DNA of 64,000 nt from positions 264,858 through 328,857 of the forward strand of contig NZ_LMPT01000022.1 of NCBI RefSeq assembly GCF_001424425.1, read 5' to 3'. Both the position numbers and the translations under genes were made by a program. The notes beneath the pieces were generated by a model. That model saw nothing but the letters and a program-made list of their open reading frames with translations. It made no database searches and was not told the origin of the DNA. Origin of the DNA: Acidovorax sp. Leaf191. Lineage in GTDB: Bacteria > Pseudomonadota > Gammaproteobacteria > Burkholderiales > Burkholderiaceae_C. Each line of letters opens with the position of its first letter. The stretch's first letter is position 1. Below are positions 1,827 to 29,665 of this stretch, piece by piece.

Positions 1827-1911
1827 AAGGGTCAGGCACCGGTTACTTTCGTGCCCATTGTTCGTAGAATCTGGCCAACAGCAAAGTTAGCATCACTAAA
1901 GGATGAGGGAT

Positions 1912-3459
1912 ATGGCGGTATACCTGACACAGGGTGGTGCATGGGATCGTAAGTCCGATGCAAAACGGACAGGAAAAAGCGCGGTACTGGCTGCGGGCGC
2001 GGCGCTCGCAGCCATGGGCGGGCAAGCATCGGCAGCGGTCATCGAAGTGGATTCTCTGGCTGACGATGTCACGGCAGGCGACAACTTGTGCACGCTGCGC
2101 GAGGCGGTGAACAATGCCAACACCGACAGCGACACCACCGGGGGAGATTGCGTTGCAGGCGCGGGCACCGACACCATTGACCTGTCTGCATTGACCGGCA
2201 CCATCACATTGGGTGGTACCCATCTGCGTCTTACCGATTCGGTCACGGTGCAAGGACCCACGACAGGGACACTGAGCATCAATGGCAATAGCACTTCCCG
2301 CATTTTTTATGTCAGAAGTGCCGGTGTAAACGTCACCATCAGCCGTCTGACGCTGACGGCGGGTAGAAATAGCAGTGGCGCTGCTATTCGTTTCGAGCAA
2401 TCGGGAAGCTTGACGATCGACCAGTCCGTCATCACGGGCAATGTGTCGACCAGCAAAGGTGGCGCGCTGTTTTTCAGATCCAATGCAGGCGGGGTCAACA
2501 TCAGCAACACCAGGGTCAGCAATAACACCGCAAGTTCCGGTGGAGCAGGGTTGTTTTTGTATAACGTAGCTGGCTCCAGCAGCATCACCAGTTCCACGAT
2601 TTCAGGAAATTCCGGCGGATCTCGGGGCGGCGGCATCTTTTTGTATAAAGTTAATGCGCCATTGACGATCAGTGATACTACGATTTCGGGCAATAGCACC
2701 GGCAATGGTCGTGGTGGTGGCGTGTTCTTTTATAAGTCGTCTGCGCCCGGCACACTGACCGTTGATCGCTCGACGATCAGTGGTAACACTGCAGGCCAAG
2801 GGGGCGGTTTCTTTTTTTACAAAACCAACTCCACGTTGCGTCTGGAAAATACCACCATATCGGGTAACGCCGCCAATGCGGGAAAGGGTGGCGGCATTTA
2901 TTTGAGGGGTTCTTTTGGCGGTACCCAGTTGACCGACATACGTTCGTCTACGCTGGCATCCAATACGGCGAGCACATCGGGGGGTAATCTCGACGGAGGG
3001 AACAGCGCCAACACCATCAACATCACGAATTCCATCTTCGCTGGTGGCACCGCGCCGACGGGCCCCGATATCAACACGGGAAACGCCACCATCAACATGA
3101 ACTACTCGCTGCTGCAAAGCACATCGGCCGCTGTGGTGGTGGGTGGCAATAATATCGGTAACGTAGACCCCCAATTAGGATCGCTGGCCAACAATGGTGG
3201 CGCCACGCTCACACGCTTGGTTGCCAGTACGAGCCCGGCACGCAATGCAGGCTCAAACACGTTCGTGACCGTGGCTTCAACCGACCAGCGAGGATTGACG
3301 CGCATCGTGGGCGGCACCATCGATATGGGTGCGGTGGAGATTCAACCCTTTGTACCAACCGATACTGCCAGCAAGATTCCTACTTTATCGCAATGGGCTT
3401 TGGTGCTGCTGGCGACCTTGCTGGCGTGGTTGGGTATCCGCCGTTATCCAAAGGTCTAA
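1912..3459 (+). CDS. Secreted CSLREA/beta-helix protein with IPTL-CTERM sorting signal
   Basis: About 515 residues. A hydrophobic signal segment (GKSAVLAAGAALAAMGG) ends in QASAA. It is followed by a CSLREA-type start (DNLCTLREAVNNANTD) and then stacked right-handed beta-helix repeats of about 35 residues, each with TISGN and GGGxFxYK. The protein closes with IPTLSQWALVLLATLL, then a basic tail (RRYPKV), which is the IPTL-CTERM sorting signal. This predicts export and C-terminal processing at the inner membrane, with display or release outside. ATG 1912 is preferred because AAAGGA lies 8 nt upstream; an in-frame ATG at 1903 has no ribosome site. The family is usually surface-associated with no known enzymatic role. 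No sorting enzyme is visible in the window. Confidence 0.85.
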   Translation: MAVYLTQGGAWDRKSDAKRTGKSAVLAAGAALAAMGGQASAAVIEVDSLADDVTAGDNLCTLREAVNNANTDSDTTGGDCVAGAGTDTIDLSALTGTITLGGTHLRLTDSVTVQGPTTGTLSINGNSTSRIFYVRSAGVNVTISRLTLTAGRNSSGAAIRFEQSGSLTIDQSVITGNVSTSKGGALFFRSNAGGVNISNTRVSNNTASSGGAGLFLYNVAGSSSITSSTISGNSGGSRGGGIFLYKVNAPLTISDTTISGNSTGNGRGGGVFFYKSSAPGTLTVDRSTISGNTAGQGGGFFFYKTNSTLRLENTTISGNAANAGKGGGIYLRGSFGGTQLTDIRSSTLASNTASTSGGNLDGGNSANTINITNSIFAGGTAPTGPDINTGNATINMNYSLLQSTSAAVVVGGNNIGNVDPQLGSLANNGGATLTRLVASTSPARNAGSNTFVTVASTDQRGLTRIVGGTIDMGAVEIQPFVPTDTASKIPTLSQWALVLLATLLAWLGIRRYPKV

Positions 3460-17447: not shown

Positions 17448-18263
17448 ATGAACCCCCATCGACGTCACGCCTTGTCCGCCCTCAGTGCGTTGTCCGCACT
17501 GGCGTCCCTCCACGCTTCAGCGGCGACCGACACCATCGCCCCAGCACTGCCACTGCCCAACGCCAACTCGCGCCCCCGGCTGCAGATCGTGATGGTCGTG
17601 CACCCTGACATGACCGCCCTCGATCTGGTCGCCCCCCAGCTCGTCTTCGCAACCATGGGCGATGCCGACACACACCTGGTCTGGAAAGACCTGTCCCCGG
17701 TCACGACCGACAGCGGCTTGAAGCTCTTGCCGAGCACGACTTTCGCCGATGCGCCTGCGACGCCTGACATCCTCTTCGTGCCCGGCGGGCTCAAGGGCAC
17801 GACTGCGTTGCTGAAGGACGAAGACACGTTGCGCTTCCTGCGCGAGCGTGGCAAAGCCGCGCGCTGGGTCACCGGCGTGTGCACCGGGGTGCTGCTGCTC
17901 GGCGCGGCCGGCCTGCTGCGGGGACACCGCGCCACGGCCCACTGGTATGTGCGGGACCTGTTGCCGATCTTTGACGCGACTCCCGTGGCGCAGCGCGTGG
18001 TGGTCGACCGCAATCGGGTAACCGGCGGCGGCGTGACCGCGGGCATGGACATGGCATTGACGCTTTCCGCGCTGCTGCGCGGCGAGGCACATGCGCGTCT
18101 CCAGACGCTGCTCTTCGAGTACGACCCCCAGCCGCCCTATCCGTCAGGCACGCCCGAGCTGGCCGGCCAGGCCCTGACGACCACAGTCCGCGAGCGACGG
18201 GGCACCGCCATCGAAACCGCCCGCCAGGCAGCGCAGAAAGCCCGCGACCGCTGGCCCAATTGA
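17448..18263 (+). CDS. Exported DJ-1/PfpI-family protein (isonitrile hydratase-like)
   Basis: 271 residues. The N-terminus (MNPHRRHALSALSALSALAS) is a signal peptide with a twin Arg, so export, possibly by Tat, is likely. The core resembles isonitrile hydratase: HPDMTALDLVAPQLVF near residue 52 and the nucleophile elbow GVCTGVLLLGAAGLL with Cys145. The C-terminus is helical. Family members are normally cytoplasmic, so a signal peptide is unusual. It could be an oxidative-stress or small-molecule hydratase protein in the periplasm; the substrate is unknown. Confidence 0.8.
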   Translation: MNPHRRHALSALSALSALASLHASAATDTIAPALPLPNANSRPRLQIVMVVHPDMTALDLVAPQLVFATMGDADTHLVWKDLSPVTTDSGLKLLPSTTFADAPATPDILFVPGGLKGTTALLKDEDTLRFLRERGKAARWVTGVCTGVLLLGAAGLLRGHRATAHWYVRDLLPIFDATPVAQRVVVDRNRVTGGGVTAGMDMALTLSALLRGEAHARLQTLLFEYDPQPPYPSGTPELAGQALTTTVRERRGTAIETARQAAQKARDRWPN

Positions 18264-18348: not shown

Positions 18349-19170
18349 CTACAACGACGCTCTCGCTGCATCGTGAAGAACTTTCGCGATCAGATCGAGC
18401 AACGCTGGCGACAGCTCCTTCGCCACCTCATCCATGGGCTCTGCAGTCGATAGGCTCACGTTAATCACGTACTGAGCGCCCGCCACCTCCAGCGGAGCGG
18501 CCAGCGCAACAACTTCGGGCTGCCACGATGCCGCGCAGTAGCCCTTCTCGGCGACATCAACCCGTGCCTGTTCAATGGCTGCCTTCAGCGTTGGCCAGGC
18601 CTCTGCACGCCGGCTGCGGAAGACATGCATCAGCGCATTGCGTCGAAGCTCCGGAGCGACGGCCAAATAGGCACGCCCGAGCGATGTCAGCTCCATGGGC
18701 ACGCGCTGACCCGACACCACATGGCGCAGCGCTGCCCGCCGGGCGTAGCGGATGGATTCCAGGTACACCATCTCGTCGCGGTCGGGTGCGGCCAGGCCGA
18801 CGTTGATGCGCCGCCCTTCTGCCAGAGCCCGCATCCTCGGAGCCGCAACCGCCAGAACGCGAGAGCCCGATCGCATGGCGTGCCCCAGGCTCAGCACAGC
18901 AGGGGCCAATCGATAGGCCCGGCTCGGCGCATCCAGCTGCAGCATGCCCGTGCCCACAAGAGTCTGGGTCAACCGGCTGACCGTGGACTTGGACAGGCCC
19001 GTACGTTCCGCCAGGTCGCCATTGCCCAGCAGCTCGGAGCCTTGCCTGAAGGCTCGCAACAGCTCGATGCCTCGCTCAAGGGAACGATTGGCCGGCGACA
19101 TCCCTGGCTTGTCGTCGGCGATCCCGTTTCTTCGTACTTCCACAAGGCTTCTCCATTGGCTGGCAACCAT
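18349..19170 (-). CDS. IclR-family transcriptional regulator
   Basis: 273 residues from ATG 19170 (GGA about 7 nt upstream); ATG 19101 is an alternative giving 250. The N-terminal winged helix (SLERGIELLRAF, then TGLSKSTVSRLTQTLVGTG) and C-terminal ligand domain (EMVYLESIRY, MELTSLGRAYLA) are complete. It is divergent from the catabolic operon that begins at 19303 and most likely controls it in response to the substrate or a CoA intermediate. A palindrome at 19176-19190 lies just before its start. Confidence 0.9.
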   Translation of the reverse strand: MVASQWRSLVEVRRNGIADDKPGMSPANRSLERGIELLRAFRQGSELLGNGDLAERTGLSKSTVSRLTQTLVGTGMLQLDAPSRAYRLAPAVLSLGHAMRSGSRVLAVAAPRMRALAEGRRINVGLAAPDRDEMVYLESIRYARRAALRHVVSGQRVPMELTSLGRAYLAVAPELRRNALMHVFRSRRAEAWPTLKAAIEQARVDVAEKGYCAASWQPEVVALAAPLEVAGAQYVINVSLSTAEPMDEVAKELSPALLDLIAKVLHDAARASL

Positions 19171-19175
19171 TTTAG

Positions 19176-19190
19176 TTCCACTCTGTGGAA
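19176..19190. promoter_or_regulatory. Probable IclR operator
   Basis: TTCCAC-TCT-GTGGAA, a perfect inverted repeat with a 3 bp spacer, lies between the divergent iclR-type gene and the catabolic operon. Its size and symmetry fit an IclR dimer site. The right half overlaps the iclR ribosome site, which would allow autorepression. Confidence 0.55.
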
Positions 19191-19302: not shown

Positions 19303-20286
19303 ATGCGCCCATTGAACTTCCGCCTCTTGCGATCCTGCACCAAGCCCCTGCTCATCAGCACCTTGCTTTTGGCAGGCGCGGCATTCGCCAACACATTTCC
19401 GCAAAAGGCCGTGCGCATCGTGGTGCCGTTTTCGCCTGGAGGCGGCACGGACCTGATCGCGCGCACGCTGGGCCAGGAGATGTCCAAAGACCTCGGTCAG
19501 CCGGTCATCATCGAAAACAAGCCCGGCGCGGGCACGGTCATCGGCACTGACGCCGTGGCGAAGGCCGCGCCTGACGGATACACGCTGGTCATGGCGAGCT
19601 TCGCGCATGCCGTCAACCCCAGCCTGCAGCCCAAGCTGCCTTTCGCCAACGACAAGGCGTTTGCGCCGGTCATTCTGGTCGGCCGCGGCCCTAACGTTCT
19701 GGTGGTGCGGCCTGCGAGCCCGTTCAAGACGGTGCAGGACATTCTGGCCGCTGCCAAGGCCAGCCCGGGCAAGCTGACCTACGCCTCGCAAGGTGCGGGC
19801 ACGTCGGCCCATCTGGCCGGTGAAATGTTCGACAACCTGGCCAACGTGAAGACCGTGCACATCCCTTACCGGGGCGCGGGTCCTGCAATGACCGATTTGA
19901 TGGGGGGGCAGGTCGACATCTTCTTCGGTACGGCTGCCGCCGTCGCTCCTTTCGTGGAACGTGGCCAACTGCGTGCCATCGCTGTGACCAGCGCCCAGCC
20001 CTCCCCTGCTTTCAAGGGCATTCCCATCATTGCAGAGAGCGTTCCGGGCTACGCGGTGGAAAGCTGGTACGGCCTGTACGCACCTGCAGGCACGTCCAAA
20101 GACGTCATTGCCCGCCTGAACGCCGCTGCGCGCAAGGCGGCCCGCGCGCCGGACTTCACGCGCAAGGTCGAGCAAGAGGGCCTTGCCGTGAGCGCTGGCG
20201 ATCCTGCTGAACTCGACACCTACGTGCGTGGCGAAGAAGCACGCTGGGCTCGCATCGTCAAAGAAAACGGCATCAAAGCCGACTGA
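19303..20286 (+). CDS. Bug-family (TctC) extracytoplasmic solute-binding protein
   Basis: 327 residues. The signal peptide ends at GAAFA and is followed by FPQKAVRIVVPFSPGGGTD, the Bug-family start that forms the carboxylate-binding loop. A second binding segment is DAVAKAAPDGYTLVMAS. It captures an organic acid in the periplasm. No TctA/TctB membrane partners are in the window, so it must work with a distant permease or as a sensor. ATG 19303 has GGAGA 8 nt upstream. It is first in the operon. Confidence 0.92.
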   Translation: MRPLNFRLLRSCTKPLLISTLLLAGAAFANTFPQKAVRIVVPFSPGGGTDLIARTLGQEMSKDLGQPVIIENKPGAGTVIGTDAVAKAAPDGYTLVMASFAHAVNPSLQPKLPFANDKAFAPVILVGRGPNVLVVRPASPFKTVQDILAAAKASPGKLTYASQGAGTSAHLAGEMFDNLANVKTVHIPYRGAGPAMTDLMGGQVDIFFGTAAAVAPFVERGQLRAIAVTSAQPSPAFKGIPIIAESVPGYAVESWYGLYAPAGTSKDVIARLNAAARKAARAPDFTRKVEQEGLAVSAGDPAELDTYVRGEEARWARIVKENGIKAD

Positions 20287-20310
20287 TCACCACATCGAGG
20301 AGAACTGCCA

Positions 20311-21123
20311 ATGAGCTTCGCTCTGATCCACCTGGAGGTCGCCGACGGCATCGCGACCATCACCCTCAACCGCCCCGACAAGCGCAACGCCATGAGCGAT
20401 GCCATGCGCAGCGAGTTCATCGAAGCGCTGGAACTTGTCTCTGCCGACAAGGCCATCAAAGCCGTGGTGCTGACCGGGGCCGGTAAGGGTTTTTGCGCTG
20501 GAGGAGACATCGCCGGCATGGAAAAGCGCATGAACGCACCGGCCGGAGACGTGGGCTTCAACGGCTGGCATCGCCAGCAACGTGTGCATCACACCCAGGC
20601 TTTGCTGCACACCATGCCCAAGCCGGTGATTGCCGCCGTCAACGGCGCGGCATCGGGGCTGGGCGCCGACACCGCGCTGGCTTGCGACTTCATCATCGCG
20701 AGCGAATGGGCCAGTTTCACTTGGTCGTACATCCACCGCGGGATCATTCCAGATGGCGGCGGCATGTACTTCCTGCCACGCCGTGTGGGGCTGCCCAAGG
20801 CGAAAGAACTGATCTTCACAGGTCGGCCGGTCAAGGTGGACGAAGCGCTGGCGCTGGGCATCGTGGATCGCCAGACCTCGGCCGACTCGCTGCTGGCCGA
20901 TGCAAAGGCCTGGGCCGCCGAGTTGAGCCAGGGTTCGGCCACTGCGCTGGCGCTGACCAAGACCATCCTCAACCAGAGCTTCGAGATGTCCGCGCAGCAG
21001 GTCTTTGCTCAGGGCAGCCAAGCCCAGGGTATCTGCTACACGAGCACGGAGCACCGCGAATCGGTGATGGCGTTTCTCGCCAAATCCGCTGTTGCGACAG
21101 CCGCCAAGGATGAAGCACCATGA
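20311..21123 (+). CDS. Crotonase-family enoyl-CoA hydratase/isomerase
   Basis: 270 residues. GKGFCAGGDIAGM forms the first oxyanion hole and NGAASGLGADTALACD the second. The Glu that hydratases carry in the PExxLG segment is Tyr140 here, while GIIPDGGG places Asp148 where PaaG-type and delta3-delta2 enoyl-CoA isomerases have their catalytic Asp. Double-bond isomerisation is therefore more likely than hydration. A GAGGAG ribosome site precedes the ATG. Its stop overlaps the next gene by 4 bp. Confidence 0.85.
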   Translation: MSFALIHLEVADGIATITLNRPDKRNAMSDAMRSEFIEALELVSADKAIKAVVLTGAGKGFCAGGDIAGMEKRMNAPAGDVGFNGWHRQQRVHHTQALLHTMPKPVIAAVNGAASGLGADTALACDFIIASEWASFTWSYIHRGIIPDGGGMYFLPRRVGLPKAKELIFTGRPVKVDEALALGIVDRQTSADSLLADAKAWAAELSQGSATALALTKTILNQSFEMSAQQVFAQGSQAQGICYTSTEHRESVMAFLAKSAVATAAKDEAP

Positions 21124-23204
21124 ACGCTATTTCCCGCTTGCTCAATCCGCGCAGCGTGGCAGTGATCGGCGCTTCGGCCGATGCCAGCAAGACCGCGGGC
21201 CGCCCGGTCTCCTACCTCGTCAAGCATGGCTTCGCGGGCGACATCTACCCGGTGAACCCCAAGGCCGACCGAATCGGCGACCTGCCGTGCTACAGCGACG
21301 TCGCCTCTCTTCCTTCAGTGCCTGACGTGGCCATTGTCTTGCTGGGCGCCGAGCGCGCTCATCTGGCGGTACGAGAGCTGTCTGCCCGCGGCTGCGCGGC
21401 GGCCATCGTATTGGCCAGCGGCTACACCGAGACTGGAGAGGACGGCGCACGCCGCCAACAGCAACTGGTGGAGGCAGCCGGGAGCATGCGCATCCTCGGC
21501 CCCAACACCATCGGCCTCGTGAACCTGACGGACAGCATTGTGCTGTCGGCCACCGGAGCGCTCGAAATGGAGCACTTCCCCGTTGGCGGTATCGGCGTGG
21601 TATCGCAAAGCGGCGGCATCCTGGGCGCGCTGTTGTCGCGCGCTGCGGCCCGGGGTATCGGCCTGTCCAAGCTCATATCCACCAGCAACGAGGTGGATCT
21701 TGAACTCGCGGATTTCATCGACCACCTCGCCGACGACGACGCCACCAAGGTGATCGCGCTGTATGTGGAAACCGTGCGCAATCCCGCCAAGTTCCGCAAC
21801 GCCTGCCTGAAGGCAGCGCGCAACGGAAAACCGGTGGTGGCTTTCAAGATTGGCCGCTCCGAGGCCGGCGCGCAAGCGGCGGTTTCGCACACCGGCGCCC
21901 TGGCCGGGGCCGACCGCATGTACGACGCACTGTTCCAGCAGATCGGGGTGATCCGTGCGCAGACGTTCTCAGACCTGCTGGACATTCCCGCAGCGCTGGC
22001 CACAGGCCGCAAACTGCACGGCAAGCGGGTGGCTATTCTCACCTCCACCGGCGGCGCAGGCACACTGGTATCGGATGACCTCGGCATGGCGGGCTTTGAC
22101 ACGCCCGCACCGGATGCTGCCACCGCGCAGGCGCTGCGCGCCTTGCAAACCGGAGACCACGCGGTGCTGGACCGCAACCCCATCGACGTAACGCTGGCAG
22201 GTCTGAAGCCAGACCTGCTACGCGGTGCCATCAATGTGTTGCTCAAGAGCCCGAGCTATGACGCGCTGACCATCATCGTCGGCTCCTCCAGCCTCGCCAT
22301 GCCCGAGTTGCTGGTGGGAGCCATCCAGGACTGCCTCCCAAACTCTGACAAGCCTGTCATTGCGTACGTCAGCCCGCATGCTCCCGAAGTCGGCGCATTG
22401 CTGACGAAGCGTGGCGTACCGGCATTTGCGGCGGCCGAGAGTTGCACTGCGGCGCTGCAGGCGATGTTCAAGGTGGCGCAGCTCAAGCCGCAGCGCGACG
22501 CCGTCGTTCTCCCCCAGGCCATCGTGGTGGACGATCTGCCCAACGGGTCGCTCGACGAATACCAGGCCAAGCAGCTGTTTACACGCTTCGGCATACCCTG
22601 CGCGGGAGAGCGCATCGTGGCAACGCCAGCCGAAGCACAGGTTGCGGCACGCGAAATGGGTGGCCGCGTGGTGCTGAAGATTCTCTCCGCCGAGATCACC
22701 CACAAGAGCGATGTGGGTGGCGTGGCAGTAAACCTGACGGCCGACACGGTGGGCGAGCGCATGTCTGCCATGGCAGCCGAAGTGCAGACCAAGGCCGGCG
22801 TGCGGCCCGATCGCTTCCTCGTCCAGGAAATGGTCGGCGGCGGAACCGAACTGATCCTGGGCATGCACCGGGACTCTCTGGGCACAGCCATCCTGCTGGG
22901 TATGGGGGGCGTGACAGCGGAACTCTTCAAAGACACGGCCATGCGGCTGCTGCCACCGGGCAGTGGTCTATCGCGGGACGAGGCCCTGTCGATGGCGCAG
23001 CAACTCAAGACCTGGCCTCTGCTGGACGGCTTTCGCGGCAGGCCCAAAGCCGATGTGGATGCACTCGTATCAGCCATGGTGGCCTTCTCTCTGATGGCGG
23101 CGCAATTGGGCGACCGGCTGCTGGAAGCGGAGATCAACCCGGTGTTCGTACTGCCGCAAGGCCAAGGTGTACGGGCAGCCGACGGTGTCGTGGTGCTGGC
23201 CTGA
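21120..23204 (+). CDS. Acetate-CoA ligase (ADP-forming) family acyl-CoA synthetase
   Basis: 694 residues with the fused alpha-beta layout. It has a CoA-binding Rossmann domain (1-130, SVAVIGASAD), succinyl-CoA ligase-like domains (150-460) with the phospho-His region VSHTGALAG (His257), and a C-terminal ATP-grasp domain (about 480-694, VLKILSAEITHKSDVGGV). It would activate the substrate acid to its CoA thioester at the cost of one ATP to ADP. The family includes acetyl-, feruloyl- and other acyl-CoA synthetases, so the acid is open. It is coupled to both neighbours by stop/start overlaps. Confidence 0.88.
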   Translation: MNAISRLLNPRSVAVIGASADASKTAGRPVSYLVKHGFAGDIYPVNPKADRIGDLPCYSDVASLPSVPDVAIVLLGAERAHLAVRELSARGCAAAIVLASGYTETGEDGARRQQQLVEAAGSMRILGPNTIGLVNLTDSIVLSATGALEMEHFPVGGIGVVSQSGGILGALLSRAAARGIGLSKLISTSNEVDLELADFIDHLADDDATKVIALYVETVRNPAKFRNACLKAARNGKPVVAFKIGRSEAGAQAAVSHTGALAGADRMYDALFQQIGVIRAQTFSDLLDIPAALATGRKLHGKRVAILTSTGGAGTLVSDDLGMAGFDTPAPDAATAQALRALQTGDHAVLDRNPIDVTLAGLKPDLLRGAINVLLKSPSYDALTIIVGSSSLAMPELLVGAIQDCLPNSDKPVIAYVSPHAPEVGALLTKRGVPAFAAAESCTAALQAMFKVAQLKPQRDAVVLPQAIVVDDLPNGSLDEYQAKQLFTRFGIPCAGERIVATPAEAQVAAREMGGRVVLKILSAEITHKSDVGGVAVNLTADTVGERMSAMAAEVQTKAGVRPDRFLVQEMVGGGTELILGMHRDSLGTAILLGMGGVTAELFKDTAMRLLPPGSGLSRDEALSMAQQLKTWPLLDGFRGRPKADVDALVSAMVAFSLMAAQLGDRLLEAEINPVFVLPQGQGVRAADGVVVLA

Positions 23205-25258
23205 TGAGCGCTTTTTCCACAGCCCAGGTGCGTCTGGAGCGCGACGGTGACGTGGGCGTGATCTGGATCGACAACCCCCCGATCAACGCCGGCTCGGCGG
23301 CCGTACGTGCGGGCCTCATGCGCGCAGTCGCTCAAGTGGCATCCGACGACCATCTGACCGCTGCTGTTTTGATCGGAGCGGGCACTACGTTCATCGCCGG
23401 CTCGGACCTGCGCGAGTTCGGTCAACCGCTGGTCGATCCGCAGCTTCCCGCCGTGATCTCTGCCATCGAAGCCTGTCACAAGCCCTTCGTCGCCGCGCTG
23501 CATGGTGCTGCGCTGGGAGGTGGGTTCGAGCTTGCACTCGGCTGCGACGCTCGCTTGGCGGCACGGGGAACGGTCGTGGGCCTGCCCGAAGTCACGCTCG
23601 GCATCATCCCCGGCGCGGGTGGAACGCAAAGGCTGCCTCGCCTGGTCGGCATACCTCGCGCCATATCGATGATCTGCGCTGGGGAGCGGATCCAAAGCGC
23701 CGCGGCGCTCGACTCTGGACTGGTCGATGCCTTGACCGACGGCGATCTGCTGGAAGCGGCGGTGGCGCTTGCACGAAGCTTGGCGGGCACCAAGCAACGG
23801 CTGCGGGACCGCGTCGTACCGGCGGCTCCACCGCACGCGGTGGCGGACGCTGCGGCCGCGGCCCTGAAGGCAGGCAAAGGACGGCCGGCAGTCATCGCCG
23901 CCATCGCAGCCGTGAAGGCAGCGGCCGAGCCGGACTTCGACGTGGCTCTTGCCAGTGAGCGCGCGGCATTTGAGCAACTTCGGCTGTCGCCAGAGGCTAC
24001 GGCGCTGCGCCATCAGTTTTTCGCAGAACGAGAAAGCGCAAAGCATTCGACACTGGCGCACATCGCCCCCCGCGCCGTGCGCTGCGCAGCGGTCATTGGC
24101 GCCGGCACCATGGGCACAGGCATCGCCATCGCCGTGCTGGATGCAGGCTTCGATGTGTTGCTGCTGGAGCACGATGGCATGGCACTGGAGCGTGGCCGCA
24201 CCCGCATCTCCGACCACTACTCGGGGCGCGTGAAGGCTGGCAAGTTGCCACCCGCGCTCGCACAGGATCGCCAAAGCAGGCTTCGCGCAACGCTGGACTG
24301 GGATGGCCTCTCTGCTGCCGATCTGGTGATCGAGGCAGTATTTGAAAGCCTGGACGTCAAGCGCCAGGTCTTTGCGCGCATCGATGCACTGGCCCGCCCC
24401 GGTGCCGTGCTGGCCAGCAACACGTCCTACCTGGACCTGGATGCCATCGCCCGCGCGACCACCCGGCCTCAGGATGTCATCGGGCTGCACTTCTTCAGTC
24501 CTGCCAACGTGATGCGACTGGTGGAAGTCGTACGGGGAAAGGCCTCGTCGCCAGACGCCTTGGCCACCGGGCTGGCGTTCGCCCGCAAGCTCCGCAAGTT
24601 GCCACTGTTGACAGGCAATGCTTTCGGATTCGTCGGCAATCGGCTTTACGCCGCATATCGGCGCCAGTGTGAGTTCCTGATCGAAGAAGGCGCCTGGCCC
24701 GAACAGGTGGATGCGGCCTTACAAAGCTTTGGCTTTGCGATGGGCCCCTTCGCCGTGGCCGACCTGTCGGGCCTCGACATCGCTTGGCGAATGCGACAAG
24801 CCCAGGCCGCCACACGCGGTCTTGCAGGGCGCTATGTGGACATTGCCGACCGGCTGTGCGAGGCTGGCCGATGGGGTCGCAAGACAGGCGCAGGCTACTA
24901 CCGCTACCCCGACGGCCGAACACCAGAGGTGGACGGTGCCACGCAGGCGCTGATCGCAGCCGCTCGCGCCGACAAGGGCATCGTGGCACGCGCCATCAGC
25001 GACGAAGAGATCCAGCGCCGCGCGTTGTTGGCGCTCGTCAATGAGGCGCTGTTGTTGCTCACCGACGGCATCGCTGCCCATGCCACGGATATCGATGTCG
25101 CGCTGGTCAACGGCTATGGTTTCCCACGCTGGGAAGGCGGGCCGGTGTTCTGGTCGCGGATGCGCGGCCAGGACGCCCTCGCGAAGGATCTCGACATGCT
25201 TGCGGACTGCAGCGGGCCAGGCTTCGTGCGCGGAGACATTCACCAATTATTCCAATGA
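23204..25258 (+). CDS. FadJ/FadB-type enoyl-CoA hydratase and 3-hydroxyacyl-CoA dehydrogenase
   Basis: 684 residues. The crotonase domain (1-190) keeps both catalytic Glu residues (GGGFELALG Glu109, GLPEVTLG Glu129), so it is a true hydratase. Residues from about 295 form the NAD-binding domain (VIGAGTMGTGIA), with the catalytic His segment IGLHFFSPANVM, followed by two C-terminal 3HCDH domains. It converts enoyl-CoA to 3-ketoacyl-CoA in two steps. The ATG overlaps the ligase stop by one base (TGATG). It is shorter than E. coli FadJ mainly at the N-terminus and linker. Confidence 0.92.
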   Translation: MSAFSTAQVRLERDGDVGVIWIDNPPINAGSAAVRAGLMRAVAQVASDDHLTAAVLIGAGTTFIAGSDLREFGQPLVDPQLPAVISAIEACHKPFVAALHGAALGGGFELALGCDARLAARGTVVGLPEVTLGIIPGAGGTQRLPRLVGIPRAISMICAGERIQSAAALDSGLVDALTDGDLLEAAVALARSLAGTKQRLRDRVVPAAPPHAVADAAAAALKAGKGRPAVIAAIAAVKAAAEPDFDVALASERAAFEQLRLSPEATALRHQFFAERESAKHSTLAHIAPRAVRCAAVIGAGTMGTGIAIAVLDAGFDVLLLEHDGMALERGRTRISDHYSGRVKAGKLPPALAQDRQSRLRATLDWDGLSAADLVIEAVFESLDVKRQVFARIDALARPGAVLASNTSYLDLDAIARATTRPQDVIGLHFFSPANVMRLVEVVRGKASSPDALATGLAFARKLRKLPLLTGNAFGFVGNRLYAAYRRQCEFLIEEGAWPEQVDAALQSFGFAMGPFAVADLSGLDIAWRMRQAQAATRGLAGRYVDIADRLCEAGRWGRKTGAGYYRYPDGRTPEVDGATQALIAAARADKGIVARAISDEEIQRRALLALVNEALLLLTDGIAAHATDIDVALVNGYGFPRWEGGPVFWSRMRGQDALAKDLDMLADCSGPGFVRGDIHQLFQ

Positions 25259-25268
25259 GACAGTCCCC

Positions 25269-26474
25269 ATGACCTTTCATGCCTATATCTGCGACGCAGT
25301 TCGCACTTCTTTTGGACGCTACGGCGGCAGCTTGTCGACCATGCGCGCGGACGACCTGGGCGCCGTGCCCTTGCGCGCTTTGATGGCGCGCAATCCGACA
25401 CTCGACTGGGACGCCGTCAACGACATCGTCTACGGCTGTGCCAACCAGGCCGGTGAGGACAACCGAAACGTCGCGCGCATGTCCGCACTGCTGGCCGGCC
25501 TTCCTGTCAGCCTGCCGGGCAGCACCGTGAACCGGCTGTGCGGCTCGGGCCTTGACGCGCTGGGCACGGCGGCGCGCGCCATCAAGTCTGGAGAGGCGCA
25601 CCTGATGCTGGCCGGTGGTGTGGAGAGCATGAGCCGCGCACCCTTTGTGATGGCCAAGGCAGAGGCAGCTTTCTCGCGCGCCGCCCAGATCGAGGACACG
25701 ACGATTGGATGGCGCTTCGTCAATCCACGCATGAGGGTCTTGCACGGTGTGGACAGCATGCCTCTAACGGCAGAGAACGTCGCTGCCGACTTCGGCATCT
25801 CCCGGCTGGACCAGGATCGCATGGCACTGGCGTCTCAACGCAAGGCTGTCGCTGCGCAGCAGCGCGGGTTCTTCGACGCGGAAATCGTGCCGGTCGCGGT
25901 ACCTCAAAAGAAAGGCGACCCCTTTGTCGTGGCGCGCGATGAGCATCCGCGCGAGACCAGCGCGGAGGCACTTGCCAAACTGAAAGGGGTTGTGCGTGCG
26001 GACGGCACCGTCACGGCGGGCAACGCATCTGGTGTCAATGACGGCGCCTGTGCTCTGCTGCTGGCCAGTGAAGACGGCGCTGCGCGGCATGGCCTCAGCC
26101 CACGCGCCCGCGTGGTGGCGATAGCCACGGCCGGCGTGCCTCCCCGGATCATGGGCATGGGCCCCGCACCTGCCACGCGCAAGGTCTTGGAGCTGGCCGG
26201 TTTGACGCTGGCGAAGATGGATGTGATCGAGCTCAACGAAGCATTTGCGGCGCAGGGCCTGGCCGTGCTGCGCGATCTCGGTCTGGACGATGACGACCCT
26301 CGCGTCAATCCCAATGGCGGAGCCATCGCCTTGGGCCATCCGCTGGGTGCATCCGGGGCGCGGCTTGCCACCACGGCGGTGAACCAGCTGCACGCCAGTG
26401 GCGGCCGCTATGCCTTGGCCACCATGTGCATCGGCGTCGGCCAGGGCATCGCCGTGGTACTGGAGCGCGTATGA
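25269..26474 (+). CDS. Acetyl-CoA C-acyltransferase (thiolase, PcaF-like)
   Basis: 401 residues, the size of beta-ketoadipyl-CoA thiolases. The nucleophile Cys91 lies in NRLCGSGLDAL. Downstream are NEAFAAQG, His357 in GHPLGASGAR and the acid/base Cys387 in CIGVGQG. It cleaves the 3-ketoacyl-CoA from the preceding enzyme to acetyl-CoA and a shortened acyl-CoA. It lies 10 bp after the FadJ-like gene, and its stop overlaps the second Bug gene (ATGA). Confidence 0.92.
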   Translation: MTFHAYICDAVRTSFGRYGGSLSTMRADDLGAVPLRALMARNPTLDWDAVNDIVYGCANQAGEDNRNVARMSALLAGLPVSLPGSTVNRLCGSGLDALGTAARAIKSGEAHLMLAGGVESMSRAPFVMAKAEAAFSRAAQIEDTTIGWRFVNPRMRVLHGVDSMPLTAENVAADFGISRLDQDRMALASQRKAVAAQQRGFFDAEIVPVAVPQKKGDPFVVARDEHPRETSAEALAKLKGVVRADGTVTAGNASGVNDGACALLLASEDGAARHGLSPRARVVAIATAGVPPRIMGMGPAPATRKVLELAGLTLAKMDVIELNEAFAAQGLAVLRDLGLDDDDPRVNPNGGAIALGHPLGASGARLATTAVNQLHASGGRYALATMCIGVGQGIAVVLERV

Positions 26475-27448
26475 ACCGCGGCATGGCGAATCGTCGCGCC
26501 CTATTGGCTGGTGCTGCTTGTGCCCTTGTGGCGCCCTGGGTATCAGCGCAAGCGTTCCCCAGCAAACCCCTGCGGCTCATCGTGCCCTTCCCTGCAGGCG
26601 GGGGTACGGACGCCATGGCAAGAGCACTCGGTGACGCGCTGTCTCGCGACCTGGGCCAGTCCGTGATCGTCGACAACAGGTCCGGCGCGGGCACCGTGAT
26701 CGGCAACGACGCTTTGGCCAAGAGTGCGCCAGATGGGCACAGCTTGCTGCTCAATACCAGTGCGATCGCCATCGTGCCCAGCCTTCACCCCAAACTGCCC
26801 TACCCTGCGGACACGGCCTTCGCGCCGGTCATGCTGCTGGGCCGCGCGCCCAACGTAGCGGTCGTGCGCATGGACAGTCCCATGAAGTCCGCCGCAGACT
26901 TCATCGCGCAGGCCCGAGCCCATCCGGGAAAGATGGCCTATGGCTCGGCCGGCAACGGGACCTCCACACACCTGGCGGCAGAACTGCTCAAAAGCACGGC
27001 CAAACTGTTCGTCACCCATGTGCCGTACCGTGGCGCGGCACCGGTCATCAACGATGTGGTGGCCGGACAGATCGACCTGGCTTTCGGCACCCTGCCCAGC
27101 GTGGCCCCGATGCTCACCAGCGGCAAGTTGCGGGCGTTGGCAGTCACAAGTGCCAAGCGCTCCCCACTGCTTCCGGATGTGCCCACCTTTGCCGAGTCGG
27201 GTGTGACCGGCTACGAAGCAGATGCCTGGTACGGGGTGTTCGTGCCGGGCGCAACGCCTGCAGGTATCGTTGATCAACTGTATGCCGCCGTCCAGCGTGC
27301 GGCCCAGACCGATTCATTCCAGCGCCGTGCTGCGGCGGAGGGCCTGGTGCTGACCATGGACCGCCCCCAGGAGACTGCCCGCATCGTGCGTGCCGAAGAG
27401 TCCAAGTGGCGGCGTGTAATCCAGGCCCAATCCATCAAAATCGAATGA
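26471..27448 (+). CDS. Second Bug-family solute-binding protein
   Basis: 325 residues. The signal peptide (RRALLAGAACALVAPWVSAQA, with a twin Arg, possibly Tat-exported) is followed by FPSKPLRLIVPFPAGGGTD, the Bug binding loop, and DALAKSAPDGHSLLLN. It is a paralogue of the protein at 19303, with the same motifs in the same order, but divergent overall. Two receptors in one operon suggest two related substrates or two affinities. It overlaps the thiolase and hydrolase genes by 4 bp at each end. Confidence 0.9.
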   Translation: MNRGMANRRALLAGAACALVAPWVSAQAFPSKPLRLIVPFPAGGGTDAMARALGDALSRDLGQSVIVDNRSGAGTVIGNDALAKSAPDGHSLLLNTSAIAIVPSLHPKLPYPADTAFAPVMLLGRAPNVAVVRMDSPMKSAADFIAQARAHPGKMAYGSAGNGTSTHLAAELLKSTAKLFVTHVPYRGAAPVINDVVAGQIDLAFGTLPSVAPMLTSGKLRALAVTSAKRSPLLPDVPTFAESGVTGYEADAWYGVFVPGATPAGIVDQLYAAVQRAAQTDSFQRRAAAEGLVLTMDRPQETARIVRAEESKWRRVIQAQSIKIE

Positions 27449-28302
27449 GTGAAATGCCTGTGCCTGCACAGAACGATGAGCAAGCGACCGACGAGCAACT
27501 CGCTGCATTGAGGCGTTTGACGCAACGCCACGTTGTTCACAGCCACGGTGGTCGCGTCGTGTGGCGGATGCTGGGTGCCGGTCGACCCCTGGTCATGCTG
27601 CACGGCGGCCACGGCAGCTGGCTGCATTGGGCACGCAATATCGAGGCTCTGGCTGAGCAACGGAGCGTCTGGGTACCCGACATGCCCGGCTACGGCGAGT
27701 CGGATGCTCCGGCCGACGCCACACTGGCATCCTTGCTACAGCGCCTGGGCGGCAGCCTTGACAGGTTGTTAGGCCCCCAGACTCCGATTGACCTTGCCGG
27801 TTTTTCGTTTGGCGGCCTGGTGGCCGCCCATCTGGCCGCGGTTCGGTCCGGCGTAGATCGCCTGGCTTTGCTCGGTGCCGCGGGCCATGGCGGCGCTCGG
27901 CGCCCATCCGCCCCCTTGATCGCATGGCGCGACGTGGTGGGCGATGCTGCTGCACTCAGGCATGTGATGCGCCACAACCTGCTGGCCCACATGCTTCATG
28001 AACCGGACAACGTTGACGCGCTGGCATTGCGCATCCACACCGATGCCTGCCTGCACACGCGCTTTCGCAGCAAGAGCATTTCGCGCGCCGGCGGTCTCCA
28101 GGCTTTGCTAGGAAGGGTTCGAGGAACCGTGAGGATGGCCTGGGGCGCGCACGATCTCACTGCGACACCCGAGGTGCTGGCCCCCGAACTTGCAGCCTGC
28201 CATCCAAACGTCGGATGTGCGATCGTGCCAAGCGCGGGTCACTGGGTGCAATACGAATCAGCGCCTGCAGTCAACGCGATGCTGCGCGACTGGCTGGCAT
28301 GA
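27445..28302 (+). CDS. Alpha/beta hydrolase
   Basis: 285 residues. The oxyanion region is MLHGGHGSWLHW, the nucleophile elbow is GFSFGG (Ser121) and the His is in SAGHWVQYE (His266). The layout resembles 3-oxoadipate enol-lactonase and MhpC-type C-C hydrolases. It may open a lactone or ester to release the acid used by the operon. Start ATG 27445 overlaps the preceding stop (ATGA). The substrate is not known. Confidence 0.85.
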   Translation: MSEMPVPAQNDEQATDEQLAALRRLTQRHVVHSHGGRVVWRMLGAGRPLVMLHGGHGSWLHWARNIEALAEQRSVWVPDMPGYGESDAPADATLASLLQRLGGSLDRLLGPQTPIDLAGFSFGGLVAAHLAAVRSGVDRLALLGAAGHGGARRPSAPLIAWRDVVGDAAALRHVMRHNLLAHMLHEPDNVDALALRIHTDACLHTRFRSKSISRAGGLQALLGRVRGTVRMAWGAHDLTATPEVLAPELAACHPNVGCAIVPSAGHWVQYESAPAVNAMLRDWLA

Positions 28303-28330
28303 AATCCAATCTCTGAAAGAACATATCACC

Positions 28331-29665
28331 ATGCATGCCACCGAAGTGTTCGGCCGCTACGCCGAAGAATACCGACAGTCAGTCCTCGACGACGATGTCA
28401 TCCACCACGCCAAGCGGGCTGTCATCGATTGGTACGCATCTCTGTTTCCAGGATTGGCGGCCGATCCGCTGACGCAGCTGGAGCAGGTGCTGGCCGACGA
28501 CCTGGACCATGGCCGCTCGCGCCTGGGAAACGGCCGAAGCGCTACGGCCCGGGCTGCCGCGCTTTACAACGGTACGGCGGCACACGCCGCCGAAGTGGAC
28601 GACAGTTTTCGCGACGCCATGTACCACCCGGGCGCCGCCACCATTGCGGCGGCCCTCGCGGCCAGCCAGGATGTGAACGCCAGTGGCTTGGCTTTTCTGC
28701 GCTCGCTGGTGCTGGGCTACGAGGTCTCGACGCGCATCGGCGTGGTGATGGGCCGCCCTCACTACCGGTTCTGGCACAACACCGGCACGATCGGCAGCTT
28801 TGGCGCCGCGGCTGCCGCTGGTGGCGCACTCGGGCTGGGGGCACAACCCTTCGCTCATGCACTCGCCACCGCCGCCACGTTTGCCGCGGGCCTCCAACAG
28901 GCGTTTCGCATGGACTCCATGTCCAAACCGCTGCATGCCGGGCGGGCGGCCGAAGCGGGCCTGCTGGCCGCGCAGCTGGCCGCCAAGGGCGTGACAGGAT
29001 CTCTGGACGTGCTCGACGGCGAGGCCGGACTGGGCCGCGCCATGAGCAATGGGCCGGACTGGTCGCAGGTCGGTGACGGTCTCGGCAGCGATTTCCACAT
29101 CAAGCGCCTGACGTTCAAGAATCACATCGGGTGCGGCCATACTTTAGCGGCCATTGACGCGGCACTGGCACTGAGAGAGCAGCACAGCCTGCAGGTGCAG
29201 GACATTGCGCACGTCCAGATCGACACCTACAAGCCTGCGCTGGACATCGCATGCTACGAACGCCCCAGCACCGCAAATGAAGCGCGTTTCAGCCTGAGAT
29301 ATGTGGTGGCAACCGCATTGGCACGCGGCAGTGTTCGGTTGGCCGCCTACGAACCGCAGCAACTCGAGCACCCGCAAACACGCGATCTCATGGCGTGCAT
29401 CGAAGCCCGTGTTGACCCTGAAATCGACGCTGCATTCCCTGGGCAACGCGCCGCACGCGTCGAGATCACGACCTGCAGCGGCGACAAGTTGGTGCACTTG
29501 CAGCCCAACCGCAAGGGTGACCCGGAGCTGCCGCTGTCCGACACAGAACTGGAGAGCAAGTTACTCGAAATGGCATCCCCGGTGATCGGCGGGCAGCGGG
29601 CTGCGCAACTGCTGCAGCGGATCTGGAGCCTCGAACAAGCCTTGGACCTGCGAGGTTTGAACTGA
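28331..29665 (+). CDS. MmgE/PrpD-family protein
   Basis: 444 residues, normal family length. GTAAHAAEVDDSFRDAMYHPGA near residue 80 matches the MmgE/PrpD active-site region, and FKNHIGCGHTLAAIDA is the second conserved block. Characterised members are 2-methylcitrate dehydratase and cis-aconitate decarboxylase, so a dehydratase/decarboxylase acting on a tricarboxylate-like or branched acid is likely. It is last in the operon (28 bp after the hydrolase). No prpB or prpC lies nearby, so it is probably not the methylcitrate-cycle enzyme. Confidence 0.85.
   Translation: MHATEVFGRYAEEYRQSVLDDDVIHHAKRAVIDWYASLFPGLAADPLTQLEQVLADDLDHGRSRLGNGRSATARAAALYNGTAAHAAEVDDSFRDAMYHPGAATIAAALAASQDVNASGLAFLRSLVLGYEVSTRIGVVMGRPHYRFWHNTGTIGSFGAAAAAGGALGLGAQPFAHALATAATFAAGLQQAFRMDSMSKPLHAGRAAEAGLLAAQLAAKGVTGSLDVLDGEAGLGRAMSNGPDWSQVGDGLGSDFHIKRLTFKNHIGCGHTLAAIDAALALREQHSLQVQDIAHVQIDTYKPALDIACYERPSTANEARFSLRYVVATALARGSVRLAAYEPQQLEHPQTRDLMACIEARVDPEIDAAFPGQRAARVEITTCSGDKLVHLQPNRKGDPELPLSDTELESKLLEMASPVIGGQRAAQLLQRIWSLEQALDLRGLN

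Follow-up and report, generated by a model that had tools for sequence, protein, structure and literature searches.

A conserved operon in Acidovorax sp. Leaf191 that may break down a beta,gamma-unsaturated dicarboxylic-type acid

What kind of acid would be broken down by a coenzyme A (CoA)-dependent operon that combines a CoA ligase, beta-oxidation enzymes and an MmgE/PrpD-family protein, yet has no acyl-CoA dehydrogenase? This question is raised by a stretch of 64,000 nucleotides from Acidovorax sp. Leaf191 (contig NZ_LMPT01000022.1, positions 264,858 to 328,857; hereafter, the window), which belongs to a genome of 5.87 Mb in 24 contigs. An earlier note had described a CoA-dependent catabolic operon of eight genes at 19303-29665. 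All eight are indeed in place on the plus strand, and we assigned the families of their products with Pfam and NCBIfam models. Our preferred reading, held tentatively and a little short of even confidence, is that together they catabolise a dicarboxylic-type acid that is beta,gamma-unsaturated, has an adipate-like chain of six carbons and probably bears a further carboxyl or other substituent. The operon and its regulatory region are laid out as follows.

18349-19119, minus strand: IclR-family regulator (Pfam HTH_IclR and IclR_C), divergent from the operon, with an in-frame ATG six codons inside the scanned start
19176-19190, no strand: dyad TTCCA-N5-TGGAA (TTCCACTCTGTGGAA in this genome), a probable operator for IclR a little over 110 bp upstream of Bug1
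19303-20286, plus strand: Bug1, periplasmic TctC-type binding protein (Pfam TctC, 272.9 bits)
20311-21123, plus strand: ECH, crotonase-fold protein, probable PaaG-like delta3-delta2 enoyl-CoA isomerase (D148 at the PaaG Asp position)
21120-23204, plus strand: ACD, single-chain ADP-forming acyl-CoA ligase (Pfam CoA_binding_2, Succ_CoA_lig and ATP-grasp_5)
23204-25258, plus strand: EHD, fused enoyl-CoA hydratase/3-hydroxyacyl-CoA dehydrogenase (Pfam ECH_1, 3HCDH_N and 3HCDH)
25269-26474, plus strand: THL, 3-oxoadipyl-CoA thiolase by model membership (TIGR02430 pcaF and NF006551, both above cut-off)
26471-27448, plus strand: Bug2, second TctC-type binding protein (Pfam TctC, 244 bits)
27445-28302, plus strand: ABH, alpha/beta-fold hydrolase (Pfam Abhydrolase_1; GFSFG at 119)
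28331-29665, plus strand: PrpD, a member of the MmgE/PrpD family that probably works as a two-base stereo-isomerase on a free 1,4-dicarboxylate (both Pfam MmgE_PrpD domains)

Successive genes are spaced by +24, -4, -1, +10, -4, -4 and +28 bp (minus denoting overlap), much as in one transcript; the 1-4 bp overlaps that had been ascribed to most junctions occur at four of the seven, the other three being gaps. A profile built from seven acyl-CoA dehydrogenase sequences found no match in the window at E<=10, and no such gene lies inside the operon at any of 40 orthologous loci (described below), five of which have one elsewhere in the stretch. Because the operon lacks this enzyme, the acid that is activated probably carries a double bond already, as the earlier note had supposed. 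Profiles of TctA and CaiB, each made from a single sequence, likewise found no match in the window.

The predicted activities of the lower half can be named. THL scores 709.8 bits against TIGR02430 (pcaF), 112 bits above the cut-off of 597, and 714.6 bits against NF006551 (cut-off 605), and by membership in these curated models it is classed as a 3-oxoadipyl-CoA thiolase (PcaF/PaaJ-type). EHD shares the two hydratase glutamates, E109 and E129, with its best solved relative (6ium), and its dehydrogenase part is complete. In ECH, these two positions are occupied by D120 and Y140, so that the Glu pair is absent, and D148, invariant in 13 of 13 aligned sequences, falls at the Asp position of the PaaG structures. 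Both features make a delta3-delta2 isomerase the more probable function of ECH, ahead of a hydratase. One PaaG structure entry, 6sla, reads Asn at the Asp aligned with D148; we take this entry to be the inactive D136N mutant.

The four activities predicted for ECH, EHD (hydratase and 3-hydroxyacyl-CoA dehydrogenase) and THL are those of PaaG, PaaF, PaaH and PaaJ, which are reported to take 3,4-dehydroadipyl-CoA to acetyl-CoA and succinyl-CoA in the lower phenylacetate pathway (PMC4498308). The lower half of the operon, with a PaaG-like isomerase, a PaaF/PaaH-like fusion and a PcaF/PaaJ-type thiolase, thus appears to be known chemistry in a new arrangement, and the view that no known pathway has this gene set was too strong. 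It is partly right, as we can only propose a substrate and a reaction for PrpD. Compared with the phenylacetate pathway, the operon has an ADP-forming ligase as its entry, a fused hydratase/dehydrogenase, added Bug and PrpD genes and an IclR-type regulator, and none of its eight genes encodes an oxygenase or a ring-opening enzyme.

The pimeloyl-CoA synthetase PauA is an ADP-forming dicarboxylate ligase. ACD carries CoA_binding_2, Succ_CoA_lig and ATP-grasp_5 in one chain, all over the Pfam cut-offs, which places it in the ADP-forming acyl-CoA ligase superfamily; its best solved relative is the ADP-forming 4-hydroxybutyrate-CoA ligase 8wzu, and it has SHTG at 256, presumably the phospho-His site. 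The remaining products are less specific. Bug1 is closest among solved structures to 2dvz, Bug27 and a terephthalate-binding protein, and Bug2 to Bug27; because several structures are similarly near, these matches do not single out a ligand. ABH scores 51.1 bits against PcaD (TIGR02427, 3-oxoadipate enol-lactonase; cut-off 255.85), and its match to alpha/beta-hydrolases appears to be unspecific. For the regulator, the best NCBIfam model is PcaR/PcaU/PobR (TIGR02431), at 95 bits under a cut-off of 284.75.

An MmgE/PrpD protein of the itaconate cluster was shown to be an (S)-(R)-methylsuccinate isomerase (Msi) that uses the free acid, with His102 and Tyr148 proposed as its bases (Gonner et al. 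2025, PMC12290011); the authors of PMC9875883 had arrived at the same gene through growth tests. The seven residues published for the P. aeruginosa enzyme (PMC12290011), H88, E91, H102, Y148, H152, K202 and K266, correspond at a constant offset of 3 to H85, E88, H99, Y145, H149, K199 and K263 of PrpD, a comparison of residue numbers only. The same seven letters occur in 64 of 76 aligned MmgE/PrpD rows, and the other 12 rows all fall outside the type-A (window-type) and type-B groups. Tyr is the second base in every type-A row, and is replaced by Ala, Met or His in nine of the 76. In a phylogenetic tree, which carries long-branch warnings for L051, L187, L191, L198 and others, the type-A rows form a clade of 37 with 100/100 support.

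A structure model of PrpD (mean pLDDT 83) best matches iminodisuccinate epimerase (Z 39.2), followed by cis-aconitate decarboxylase (38.0) and then 2-methylcitrate dehydratases (29-32); fold alone does not separate the first two. NCBIfam does not support a 2-methylcitrate dehydratase, the scores being 40.9, 29.2 and 20.3 bits against cut-offs of 950, 575 and 458. Given that all published isomerase residues are in constant register, although PrpD falls in another clade, we consider a stereo-isomerase role likelier than dehydration. The MmgE/PrpD step listed in the earlier note more likely isomerises a free acid. A 1,4-dicarboxylate backbone is given as common to all known substrates of the family (PMC12290011); we read PrpD as a predicted isomerase of some 2-substituted succinate.

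This PrpD is the only MmgE/PrpD protein encoded in its genome. The Msi gene is reported as adjoining a methylsuccinyl-CoA dehydrogenase gene (PMC12290011), and an acyl-CoA dehydrogenase is absent from the window and from the operon at all 40 loci. In Stutzerimonas stutzeri (L205), a putative Msi, named by gene order only, has neighbours arranged as in the published cluster (ich-mcd-rdo-msi-ict-ccl), namely Ich-like, acyl-CoA dehydrogenase, glyoxalase-fold, PrpD, CaiB, Ccl-like (score 138, cut-off 375) and DctP; the window PrpD is 35% identical to it, and the two fall in separate clades, each with 100/100 support. Two side observations concern the family more widely. Paralogs with Ala, Met or His for the second-base Tyr (L168 3197, L002 360 and seven more aligned rows) include one in G052 near a type-A gene and are possibly members with another reaction. 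The PrpD genes G130:C26:371-1690 and G295:C1:257325-258626 have one internal stop codon each.

To what extent do these genes belong together? We surveyed 398 genomes of the same family, our own included, for orthologs of the ligase (E<=1e-250) and for close relatives of PrpD (E<=1e-130). These two were taken as operon markers because an EHD of 53-65% is also found where the operon is lacking (L043-L048). The ligase was found in 37 genomes, the close PrpD in 40 and both in 32; in all 32, they share a contig and lie at most 9.2 kb apart (Fisher p about 2e-34, which is not a true probability, as the genomes are related). The operon is patchily distributed, occurring in one of the four same-genus genomes listed besides our own. 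Its named holders include Variovorax and Cupriavidus records and Azospirillum lipoferum (L001, L002, L006 and L051, the PrpD of L051 reaching only 39%). Among plasmid records, the nearest PrpD is from Variovorax (83%), and L202, reached via Cupriavidus sp. U2, is a type-A locus.

The 40 orthologous loci were defined by a ligase at 70% or more, and seven of them run into or near the end of the stretch. IclR and ECH orthologs are present at 39 each, Bug1 at 38 and PrpD at 34 (35 with G052, whose PrpD is further off). EHD occurs at 18, THL at 19 and both together at 17; Bug2 occurs at 12 and ABH at 13. Hydrolysis of a lactone or ester, which the earlier note had among its steps, is thus optional rather than a core step. 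The order is variable, the frequent one being IclR/Bug1-ECH-ACD-(ABH)-EHD-PrpD-THL, in which PrpD often stands between EHD and THL. The ending seen in the window, THL-Bug2-ABH-PrpD, recurs in L137, L138 and, without EHD, L139, and a minimal locus of Bug1-ECH-ACD-PrpD is found in L140 and L146. At L038 and L144, the Bug1 matches are split in two. A link of EHD and THL to the box (benzoyl-CoA) route was tried and rejected: boxB is present in eight of 14 genomes with an EHD of at least 52% (two of the 14 being fragments) and in 81 of 150 overall.

The dyad between the regulator and the operon is conserved as well, being exact at 34 of 39 loci, with one mismatch at four and two mismatches at one, which makes it a probable IclR operator. 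In our own genome, the exact dyad occurs at six places (reversed control, three); five lie inside open reading frames (ORFs) and the sixth, the sole intergenic one, is the operon's. The relaxed form TTYCA-N5-YGGAA occurs at 26 places (17 forward and 15 reverse; control, 11 and 11), mostly by chance, of which the 20 further ones lie inside ORFs (13) or between them (7). No acyl-CoA dehydrogenase lies within about 1.5 kb of any of the 26, and the possibility raised earlier, that this IclR co-regulates a dehydrogenase elsewhere, found no support at these places. A tighter pattern in 15 related genomes matched 15 places (control, one): 10 main operons, two sites before Bug operons (L216 and L217) and three that seem unrelated (L213, L218 and L219). 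It was unmatched in four of the 15 genomes, despite the operon there. In L213 and L219 (G182:C15 and G077:C46; two species of one genus), the site lies apart from the operon, between a serine-protease-like gene and lepA (by eye). Taken together, the co-occurrence of ligase and PrpD and the conserved dyad show that the operon is more than a chance assembly.

Nine loci hold further exact dyads, and all 19 sites of those loci lie between called genes, as called by a simple script that misses some genes (e.g., at L138). The extra dyads precede Bug-CaiB-Bug-ABH in L147 and L222, a Bug at the end of the contig in L149, a porin in L152, hydrolase-Bug in L001 and L137, and TctA-containing units in L051; the one at L138, 4170, has no clear gene behind it. 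In L161 and L164, and unlinked in G301 (L221), the dyad precedes a Bug and a D-2-hydroxyacid dehydrogenase. The transport genes behind the same dyad fit the uptake of an organic acid.

Two of these units have notable surroundings. At L147 (13813-17890) and L222 (10975-15058), the dyad and its Bug-CoA-transferase III-Bug-hydrolase unit adjoin a TctA gene, and the same genomes hold the operon. At L221 (7809-16139, G301:C1), the unit adjoins an ich-mcd-ict-ccl-like cluster that includes an acyl-CoA dehydrogenase; its 2-hydroxyacid dehydrogenase shares 75-77% identity with those next to the type-A operons in L161 and L164, and no MmgE/PrpD gene was found in the 19.9-kb stretch of L221. Acyl-CoA dehydrogenases are thus absent near the dyads of our own genome and present beside this dyad unit of G301 and, as follows, in sister operons.

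In the sister operons, a close PrpD (54-63% identity) is divergent from acyl-CoA dehydrogenase-Bug-ligase (L003 and L169-L173) or collinear with them, with a LysR gene in between (L203 and L204). The ADP-forming ligase is 34-38% identical to ACD, the Bug is near, and L003, L169, L170, L173, L203 and L204 also have a hydrolase (40-52%). Both operon types keep the ligase, Bug and PrpD, but the sister has an acyl-CoA dehydrogenase where the window operon has the isomerase, and its stretches have no match to EHD or the thiolase. The simplest common idea is that both would act on the same kind of acid, saturated in the sister and beta,gamma-unsaturated in the window, and would lead to an alpha,beta-unsaturated CoA ester.

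Other clusters resemble the operon in part. Like the itaconate/methylsuccinate cluster ich-mcd-msi-ict-ccl, it combines a step that activates an acid with CoA and an MmgE/PrpD protein that has the same catalytic residues, and a TctC-type binding protein gene is reported near that cluster in C. necator (PMC12290011; PMC9875883). In contrast to it, the window operon has no acyl-CoA dehydrogenase, CoA-transferase or lyase, its PrpD is of another clade, and its predicted ending is thiolytic. Acinetobacter (L004) and Stutzerimonas azotifigens (L054) have a related PrpD (44% and 50%) with a ligase, EHD and a PcaF-type thiolase. The Acinetobacter cluster, on a plasmid, joins PrpD, ligase, EHD, PcaF and DcaP with two acyl-CoA dehydrogenases, whereas the window operon has an isomerase and no dehydrogenase. 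The clusters for dicarboxylate beta-oxidation, of the pim and dca type, share with it a fused ECH-HAD, a PcaF-type thiolase and a CoA ligase; the acyl-CoA dehydrogenase that marks them is absent from the window and from the operon at the 40 loci. A search of the open-access literature, judged mostly from titles and abstract openings, gave no recognisable description of the gene set.

We propose the following route. Bug1 and Bug2 would capture the acid outside the cell, ABH releasing it where it is available as an ester or lactone. PrpD would interconvert the stereo-isomers of the free acid via an enolate, so that an enantioselective ligase could use both, and ACD would form the CoA ester, converting ATP to ADP. 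ECH would then shift the double bond from delta3 to delta2, and EHD would hydrate and oxidise the product to a 3-oxoadipyl-CoA. An extra carboxyl, by then beta to the ketone, would on chemical grounds be lost as CO2, and THL would cleave 3-oxoadipyl-CoA to acetyl-CoA and succinyl-CoA. The IclR-type protein would control the operon at TTCCA-N5-TGGAA. The gene set, its conservation, the dyad, the thiolase family and the isomerase-, hydratase- and epimerase-type residues are all read from sequence; what we infer is the substrate of each protein, the point at which PrpD acts, regulator binding and the direction of regulation.

The substituent is postulated because two demands must be reconciled: a plain hexenedioate lacks the 1,4-dicarboxylate needed by characterised MmgE/PrpD proteins, and an extra carboxyl or other group would probably make the acid a 2-substituted succinate as well. 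By chemical reasoning, 3-carboxyhexenedioate would meet the demands of both PrpD and ECH and would decarboxylate on oxidation. Several further points weigh against the proposed route. Five of the 37 ligase-positive genomes have no close PrpD, and at 20 of the 40 loci (some of them cut) neither EHD nor THL is in the operon, so the 3-oxoadipyl end-point rests on the remainder; the EHD-THL pairs are also not linked to the box route. ECH scores 183 bits against the NCBIfam PaaG model TIGR02280, under the cut-off of 345.15, and may work like PaaG though not filed as such. In the PrpD model, confidence is low at the active-site loops (89-100, 230-240 and 264-270, pLDDT below 50). The D-2-hydroxyacid dehydrogenase behind the dyad in three genomes has no use in the scheme, and neither it nor the CoA-transferase behind extra dyads is explained by 3-carboxyhexenedioate.

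Could another acid account for the same genes? If the substrate were a lactone or hydroxy acid, ABH would open the lactone or ester and PrpD would dehydrate the product, as 2-methylcitrate dehydratase does, ahead of activation, isomerisation and beta-oxidation. The MmgE/PrpD family includes dehydratases, ABH adjoins PrpD or the ligase where it occurs and has a weak likeness to enol-lactonases, and in L001 and L137 extra dyads are followed by hydrolase genes. We nevertheless consider this route unlikely, given that most loci have no ABH, that the fold of PrpD is nearer the epimerase than the 2-methylcitrate dehydratases and its NCBIfam scores are far under the PrpD cut-offs, and that the Tyr second base is kept. 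Less likely still is a plain 3-hexenedioate (beta-hydromuconate) without a substituent, for which ACD, ECH, EHD and THL alone would suffice and match the lower phenylacetate route; PrpD would then act on an unrelated side substrate or have another activity, and its presence at most of the 40 loci, often between EHD and THL, is rather constant for a side role.

Lower again in our estimate, and quite improbable, is a C5-branched dicarboxylate such as an itaconate-like acid, with ECH as an itaconyl-CoA to mesaconyl-CoA isomerase, PrpD as a methylsuccinate-type isomerase and EHD and THL serving other flux. An itaconyl-CoA hydratase is reported with such isomerase activity (PMC12290011), the minimal loci consist only of Bug1-ECH-ACD-PrpD, and the dyad-bearing unit of G301 adjoins its ich-mcd-ict-ccl-like cluster with no PrpD in that stretch. 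Yet the operon shows neither a lyase nor an Ich-type hydratase, EHD could not oxidise a tertiary hydroxyl, the thiolase is of the 3-oxoadipyl-CoA type, and PrpD lies outside the clade of the putative Stutzerimonas isomerase.

Two further genes of the window lie outside the operon. A DJ-1/PfpI-like gene (by eye) is found at 17448-18263, downstream of the IclR gene, and a repetitive, secreted-looking protein is encoded at 1903-3459, with a sorting-like C-terminal tail, IPTLSQWALVLLA (by eye).

The preferred reading, a substituted beta,gamma-unsaturated six-carbon acid, can be taken one step further, with only a slim chance of being right: the type-A PrpD clade would represent a new MmgE/PrpD activity, one that interconverts the stereo-isomers of a C7 tricarboxylate such as 3-carboxyhexenedioate (butene-1,2,4-tricarboxylate). 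Such a compound would be at once a 2-substituted succinate for PrpD, a beta,gamma-unsaturated adipate for ECH and a tricarboxylate for the transporter family, and its oxidation to a beta-keto acid with loss of CO2 would give 3-oxoadipyl-CoA, which fits THL. The route would then be an undescribed catabolic one, and the sister operon with its acyl-CoA dehydrogenase would serve the saturated acid.

MmgE/PrpD proteins are widespread and mostly uncharacterised; PMC12290011 gives 50,344 hits from 21,713 organisms. The operon links one separate clade of them to constant partners, to a dyad that is conserved and to an end-point that can be named, by which its reaction becomes testable, and the paired operon types, one with an isomerase and the other with a dehydrogenase, offer a built-in control. 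If the proposed reading is true, the acid would be a carbon source for Burkholderiales by a route that we did not find described in the open-access literature searched.

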